In this document: positions 19,817 to 20,134 of the stretch, in pieces
How the letters are laid out: the number at the start of each line of letters is the position of its first letter
How positions within the stretch are numbered: position 1 is the stretch's first letter
From: an uncultured Dehalococcoidia bacterium
GTDB taxonomy: Bacteria; Chloroflexota; Dehalococcoidia; Lucifugimonadales; UBA3495
Length of the DNA: 64,000 nt
Direction: 5' to 3'
Assembly: GCA_958296385.1 (NCBI GenBank)
Contig: OY282494.1
Span: 3,120,981 to 3,184,980, forward strand
Program-made: the position numbers and the translations under genes
The notes under the pieces: model-generated
What the model saw: only the letters and a program-made list of their open reading frames with translations
Database searches by the model: none
Told to the model about the DNA's origin: nothing

Positions 19817-19864
19817 CGCCCCAACCTGCAAGCGCTGCGTCTGCCGCAACGGAGGAGTCATCAA

Positions 19865-20134
19865 ATGGCACAACGACCTGATGTCAAGCGGATGGAAGTC
19901 GAGATTGTCTATTGCTGGGATTGAGGCCACGCCGGACGCGCGGCCTGGATGGCCAGCGAAGCCCTGACTCGCACCGGCGACCACATCTCCACCTTCAAGC
20001 TCACCCCCGGTGAACACGGCAAGTTCGACATCACCATCGACGGCGAACTGGTCGGCGAACACAAGCACACCCCCGACGCCCACCTGTTCCCCGACTTGCA
20101 AGACCTGATGTCCGCAATCCACGACCGCATCTGA
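19865..20134 (+). CDS. SelW/Rdx-family selenoprotein (in-frame TGA at codon 20)
   Basis: The frame from ATG 19865 (GGAGGAG 7 nt upstream) reads VEIVYCWD, then TGA at 19922-19924, then GHAGRAAWMASEALTRTGD through to a stop at 20132. This is the SelW/SelT/SelH (Rdx) thioredoxin-like fold, whose redox motif is CxxC or CxxU; here it becomes C17-W-D-U20. The conserved RAAWMASE helix and the C-terminal DGELVGEH and FPDLQDLM segments lie after the TGA, so homology continues through it. With Sec the product is 89 residues, the family length. A TGA-proximal hairpin (19939-19958) could be the SECIS. Own promoter and terminator flank it. The role is probably a thiol/selenol redox protein. Confidence 0.85.
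19939..19958 (+). promoter_or_regulatory. candidate bacterial SECIS hairpin
   Basis: In the mRNA CGC-GGCC pairs with GGCC-(A bulge)-GCG around the loop UGGAU. The loop begins 21 nt after the UGA, in the range usual for bacterial SECIS elements, and contains GG as in the E. coli fdhF loop. A competing hairpin (GCCG/CGGC) lies closer to the UGA. Structure is inferred by eye. Confidence 0.45.

Follow-up and report, generated by a model that had tools for sequence, protein, structure and literature searches.

A SelW-like selenoprotein gene with a probable SECIS element in a Dehalococcoidia/SAR202-type Chloroflexota genome

The decoding of UGA as selenocysteine (Sec) via SelB is an established bacterial pathway. 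In the Sargasso Sea and GOS surveys, no selenoprotein family was larger than that of the SelW-like proteins, with 48 genes and 427 sequences, respectively (PMC1088965, PMC2398784), and the function of the family has been termed unclear (PMC1088965). The gene described here resembles these marine genes in its SelW-like family, its CxxU motif and its candidate SECIS element right after the UGA (PMC1088965, PMC2398784); the survey genes, however, come from metagenome sequence, whereas ours lies in a single-contig genome of the Dehalococcoidia/SAR202 type that has its own Sec pathway. SelW-like selenoproteins of this kind are already well known from the sea, and the present case is soundly viewed as a correction of annotation rather than a surprise. 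Among the papers searched, none mentions SAR202 together with selenoprotein.

The bacterial Rdx/SelW structures 2fa8, 2oka, 2obk, 2ojl, 3dex and 2p0g, which presumably have Cys in place of Sec, share the fold and family of the present protein (sequence E-values of 1.9e-9 to 1.4e-5) and are its top Foldseek matches, yet their identity to it is only 27–38%. Mouse SelW (2npb), the native form of which we take to be a CxxU protein, belongs to the same fold class, with 20% identity and a TM score of 0.63. The eukaryotic SECIS element, as in mouse SelW, is located in the 3' UTR, whereas the hairpin considered here is directly downstream of the UGA, in the coding frame.

A TGA codon in the redox motif

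The gene was found in a stretch of 64,000 nucleotides of bacterial DNA (the window), which provides the coordinates of the following features.

19851–19857, plus strand: Shine-Dalgarno-like GGAGGAG, 7 nt upstream of the ATG (direct sequence reading)
19865–20134, plus strand: selW-like (Rdx) selenoprotein gene, including the stop (translation with TGA as U, PF10262, TIGR02174, TGA-bearing orthologues in nine congeners)
19922–19924, plus strand: predicted Sec codon UGA, residue 20, second redox position of CxxU (TGA in every congeneric orthologue retrieved, TGC or TGT (Cys) in more distant homologues)
19939–19958, plus strand: probable bacterial SECIS hairpin, CGCGGCC / UGGAU loop / GGCC, bulged A, GCG (folding, wobble covariation, a desert of synonymous change at codons 24–32, consensus rules of PMC13188914)
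20163–20188, plus strand: possible intrinsic terminator with a 10-bp stem and the tail ATTTGTTTCC (pattern scan only)

The coding part without the stop extends from the ATG at 19865 to 20131 and, with the TGA read through, specifies 89 residues (MAQRPDVKRMEVEIVYCWDUGHAGRAAWMASEALTRTGDHISTFKLTPGEHGKFDITIDGELVGEHKHTPDAHLFPDLQDLMSAIHDRI). Its redox motif is C17-W-D-U20, that is, CxxC in the form C-W-D-TGA, and 69 sense codons separate the TGA from a second stop, TGA at 20132–20134, so that the conserved frame proposed in the initial annotation does continue past the first TGA. The read-through product matches the Pfam Rdx profile PF10262 over its whole length (E = 1.4e-14, 54.5 bits against a cut-off of 22.6) and NCBIfam TIGR02174, CXXU_selWTH (41.9 bits against 34.2), the TGA falling on the second of the two redox positions, and both motif columns are invariant in an alignment of 23 sequences in which Sec was written as C. 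With scores above the curated cut-offs, the full domain covered and the motif placed after the strand at residues 10–17, the product belongs to the SelW/Rdx family, as had been claimed initially.

An AlphaFold model (pLDDT 89.2) has strands at residues 10–17, 41–49, 54–58 and 61–65 and helices at 23–40 and 78–88, which is the strand-helix-strand-strand-strand-helix topology of SelW. The best 21 PDB matches in Foldseek are all SelW/Rdx-family proteins (E-values of 7e-8 to 7e-6, TM scores of 0.76–0.78 by query), followed by thioredoxins, and phmmer recovers the same PDB entries; the predicted fold is the thioredoxin-like fold of SelW. From the CxxU motif and the fold, we infer an oxidoreductase activity for this SelW-like protein.

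Reading of the gene as a bacterial selenoprotein is supported overall, and so is the ribosome-binding site described for it, GGAGGAG being present at a spacing of 7 nt; the sole part without support is the possible promoter, for which a scan yielded no sigma-70-like match, a model that may not suit this phylum. The terminator does exist as a hairpin, but to call it strong was an overstatement, given that the pattern scan found one terminator-like hairpin against 0.6 expected by chance, and an intrinsic terminator downstream of selW is only plausible.

Conservation of the TGA and of the flanking codons

The nearest named records carry the labels Dehalococcoidia, Chloroflexota and SAR202 cluster, and the relatives compared here are assemblies of uncultured bacteria. 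Orthologues of selW occur in nine congeners, at 90–94% identity, and in seven genomes of other genera, at 61–70%, and all of them have TGA at codon 20; among the congeners, the terminal stop varies (TGA, TAG or TAA) and codon 20 is invariably TGA. When the comparison is extended to 36 distinct genes with TGA and to Cys-containing Rdx proteins, as the initial annotation had recommended, the distant, non-Sec homologues are found to have Cys at the TGA column, with the exception of the second gene copy in one relative (L053). An in-frame UGA at a functional residue, which homologues retain as UGA or replace by Cys, is one of the marks of a bacterial selenoprotein. A search of viral contigs and phages yielded no relatives.

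Many of the more distant homologues in the class have CxxC, and the occurrence of such plain-Cys Rdx relatives is compatible with the TGA being a sequencing error or a recent nonsense mutation in an ordinary Cys-type gene, in effect a pseudogene. Close relatives, which had been named as the test of this explanation, keep the TGA and offer no sense codon in its place; its conservation at this codon in separately assembled congeners and in other genera refutes an error or pseudogene, and with purifying selection downstream of the TGA, a covarying hairpin and a full Sec pathway in the genome also speaking against it, this explanation is extremely improbable.

Before the TGA, codon differences, summed over all congener pairs as raw counts from pairs that are not independent, amount to 278 synonymous versus 89 non-synonymous; after it, the counts are 944 versus 162, including 98 versus 0 at codons 21–34. 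On these counts, the sequence 3' of the TGA is under purifying selection. A standard gene caller would split the gene, as had been foreseen, an internal ATG at codon 29 opening a 61-codon ORF; recognition of the selenoprotein repairs a gene that is otherwise divided by callers treating TGA as a stop. The availability of this ORF could also be taken to mean that the TGA mostly terminates translation and that the real product is the 61-codon one. Such a fragment would, however, be without the active site, the covarying hairpin would serve no purpose, and the codons before the TGA, which include the first SelW strand and the motif Cys, are conserved with the synonymous excess given above, so that a functional truncation is very unlikely. 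The full-length selenoprotein gene can be regarded as firmly established by the comparative evidence.

The hairpin downstream of the UGA

The consensus for bacterial SECIS elements specifies a loop of 3–9 nt, an upper stem of 4–16 bp, a G within the first two loop positions, a distance of 16–37 nt from the UGA and an MFE of at most -7.5 kcal/mol (PMC13188914). The candidate proposed initially, with the loop UGGAU (19946–19950) starting 21 nt past the UGA, conforms to these rules (PMC13188914), having a 5-nt loop with G in the second position, an upper stem of 4 bp with more pairs below and an energy of -12.2 kcal/mol for the 27-nt hairpin. Folding, suggested as a check, revealed the hairpin, but the 47-nt stretch has an unremarkable fold energy (z = -0.61), which does not discriminate a SECIS from chance. 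Fold energy as proof of a SECIS was replaced by a covariation test, which does separate the hairpin from chance.

Since the stretch is constrained at the protein level as R-A-A-W-M-A, the test was restricted to the wobble (third) bases of codons. In 35 of the 36 distinct Sec genes, the third base of codon 26 is Watson-Crick complementary to that of codon 30, against a shuffled mean of 12.2, and none of 20,000 shuffles was as high, a fraction that is not a probability, the sequences sharing kinship. All four types of pair are represented (G-C 10, C-G 17, T-A 5, A-T 3), the exception being one congener (L042) in which the pair is broken (T-C). Merging of identical stems leaves 24 of 25 paired, versus 10.4, and among 351 third-position pairs 26/30 ranks first (z = 8.6) and 27/29, the next pair in the stem, second (z = 4.7); in 26 non-Sec homologues, by contrast, 26/30 is paired in 9, with 10.7 expected. 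The case for the hairpin is made by the four pair types across genera together with the contrast to the Cys genes. In the congeners, codons 24, 25, 27, 30, 31 and 32, exactly over the hairpin, show no synonymous change, and most other degenerate codons show about 9–30 pairwise synonymous changes. With covarying wobble pairs that distinguish the Sec-type genes from their non-Sec homologues, the hairpin at 19939–19958 can be taken, with high probability, as a genuine bacterial SECIS. A further candidate below the core stem, the wobble pairing R25/x31, was dropped, as it is not conserved across the wider set.

In this lineage, the Trp codon of RAAW(M/I)A supplies the GG of the loop, and the synonymous wobble bases covary, holding the stem. 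A search of 60 relatives found almost exclusively Rdx copies of the Sec type, and selenium use would therefore be a fixed ancestral trait of the group; that it is such a trait, and that the Rdx motif sequence, on whose RAAW(M/I)A codons the SECIS core is built, may itself ease the gain of Sec, has about an even chance of being right. The covariation record is unusually clear, and as a natural data set it lets wobble covariation cleanly separate SECIS pairing from protein constraint. Tandem Rdx pairs occur in L053 (1504–2077), where a CVPU copy is followed by an SLSD copy without Cys or Sec, and in L089, with one CVPU and one CMPC copy.

Sec decoding in the host genome and the selW locus

The host genome is a single contig of 3.30 Mb, 99.95% complete. 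The search for selA, selB, selD and selC, called for at the outset, recovered the full set of components that the selenoprotein reading implies and excludes the absence of selB and tRNA-Sec that would speak against it. The tRNA-Sec is at 449534–449626 on the minus strand (ARAGORN tRNA-SeC, anticodon TCA; Rfam score 66.4 bits versus a gathering score of 47), selA has a full-length profile match (536.6 bits), selB scores 357 bits over positions 2–580 of 581, C-terminal part included, and selD scores 374 bits, with one in-frame TGA and the active-site region HCAGUAAK. The selD gene (L020, 1501–2421, minus strand; G000:C1:1766127–1767047) is itself a selenoprotein gene.

A frame open past the TGA would also be seen if the whole genome used TGA for a standard amino acid, as in code 4 or 25, instead of reading it locally as Sec. 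This is vanishingly unlikely, with tRNA-Sec, SelA, SelB and SelD all in the genome, TGA serving as terminal stop of selW itself and of sucC in the window, and the in-frame TGA falling exactly at the redox Cys column of the family. The computational evidence shows the gene and the family to which it belongs, the conservation of the codon, the covarying hairpin and the presence of the whole Sec pathway, and selW is almost certainly a genuine SelW-like (Rdx) selenoprotein gene of a Dehalococcoidia/SAR202-type Chloroflexota bacterium, with Sec inserted at UGA codon 20. The insertion itself we infer from sequence: a ribosome reaching this UGA would encounter SelB with GTP and Sec-tRNA(Sec) bound to the hairpin, through the UGGAU loop 21 nt downstream, and Sec would be inserted rather than translation terminated, giving the 89-residue thioredoxin-like protein. 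Its Cys-Trp-Asp-Sec redox centre would probably act by reversible selenenylsulfide/thiol exchange, the partner being a protein or a small thiol.

The three Rdx genes of the host all have TGA at the motif, so that a Dehalococcoidia/SAR202-type genome is now credited with a full Sec-decoding system and a CxxU Rdx set of three members. The two further genes, both with the motif CVP-TGA, are at G000:C1:1220744–1220944 (L064) and G000:C1:2098664–2098870 (L065). A codon-usage scan of the window for more TGA-interrupted genes returned no convincing second selenoprotein, its other output being adjacent gene pairs and antisense-looking frames. Three well-assembled genomes of the class without a full-length selA match (G073, G092, G171; 93–97% complete) have an Rdx gene with no inner stop, a pattern in keeping with the Sec reading; three others likewise without a match (G026, G029, G059) have a TGA-type Rdx, but these genomes, 67–81% complete, are too incomplete for a verdict.

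The congeners, and to some extent other genera, share the order Fe-S/CCG protein, alpha/beta hydrolase, selW, DUF503 (opposite strand), Rex and atpC. At the same locus, selW is absent from four congeners; the lineage can thus do without it, and the gene is accessory in the genus. Absence is clean in G005, G007 and G009 (L096–L098), where the gap between hydrolase and DUF503 is only 21–30 nt, Rex still adjoins and selA is present; in G011, other sequence takes the place of selW between the hydrolase and DUF503. The redox-type neighbours (Fe-S/CCG protein, Rex) are suggestive at most as a functional hint, because Rex remains in the three genomes with clean absence and G011 has other sequence.

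Two regions with toxin-antitoxin-like frames, recognized by eye from translations only, were noted at this locus.

L094, about 1797–2679, and L095, about 270–970: toxin-antitoxin-like frames (G011, G006)

The sequence that stands in place of selW in G011 has small higB/higA-like toxin-antitoxin frames, and in G006 an antitoxin-like frame is found upstream of selW.
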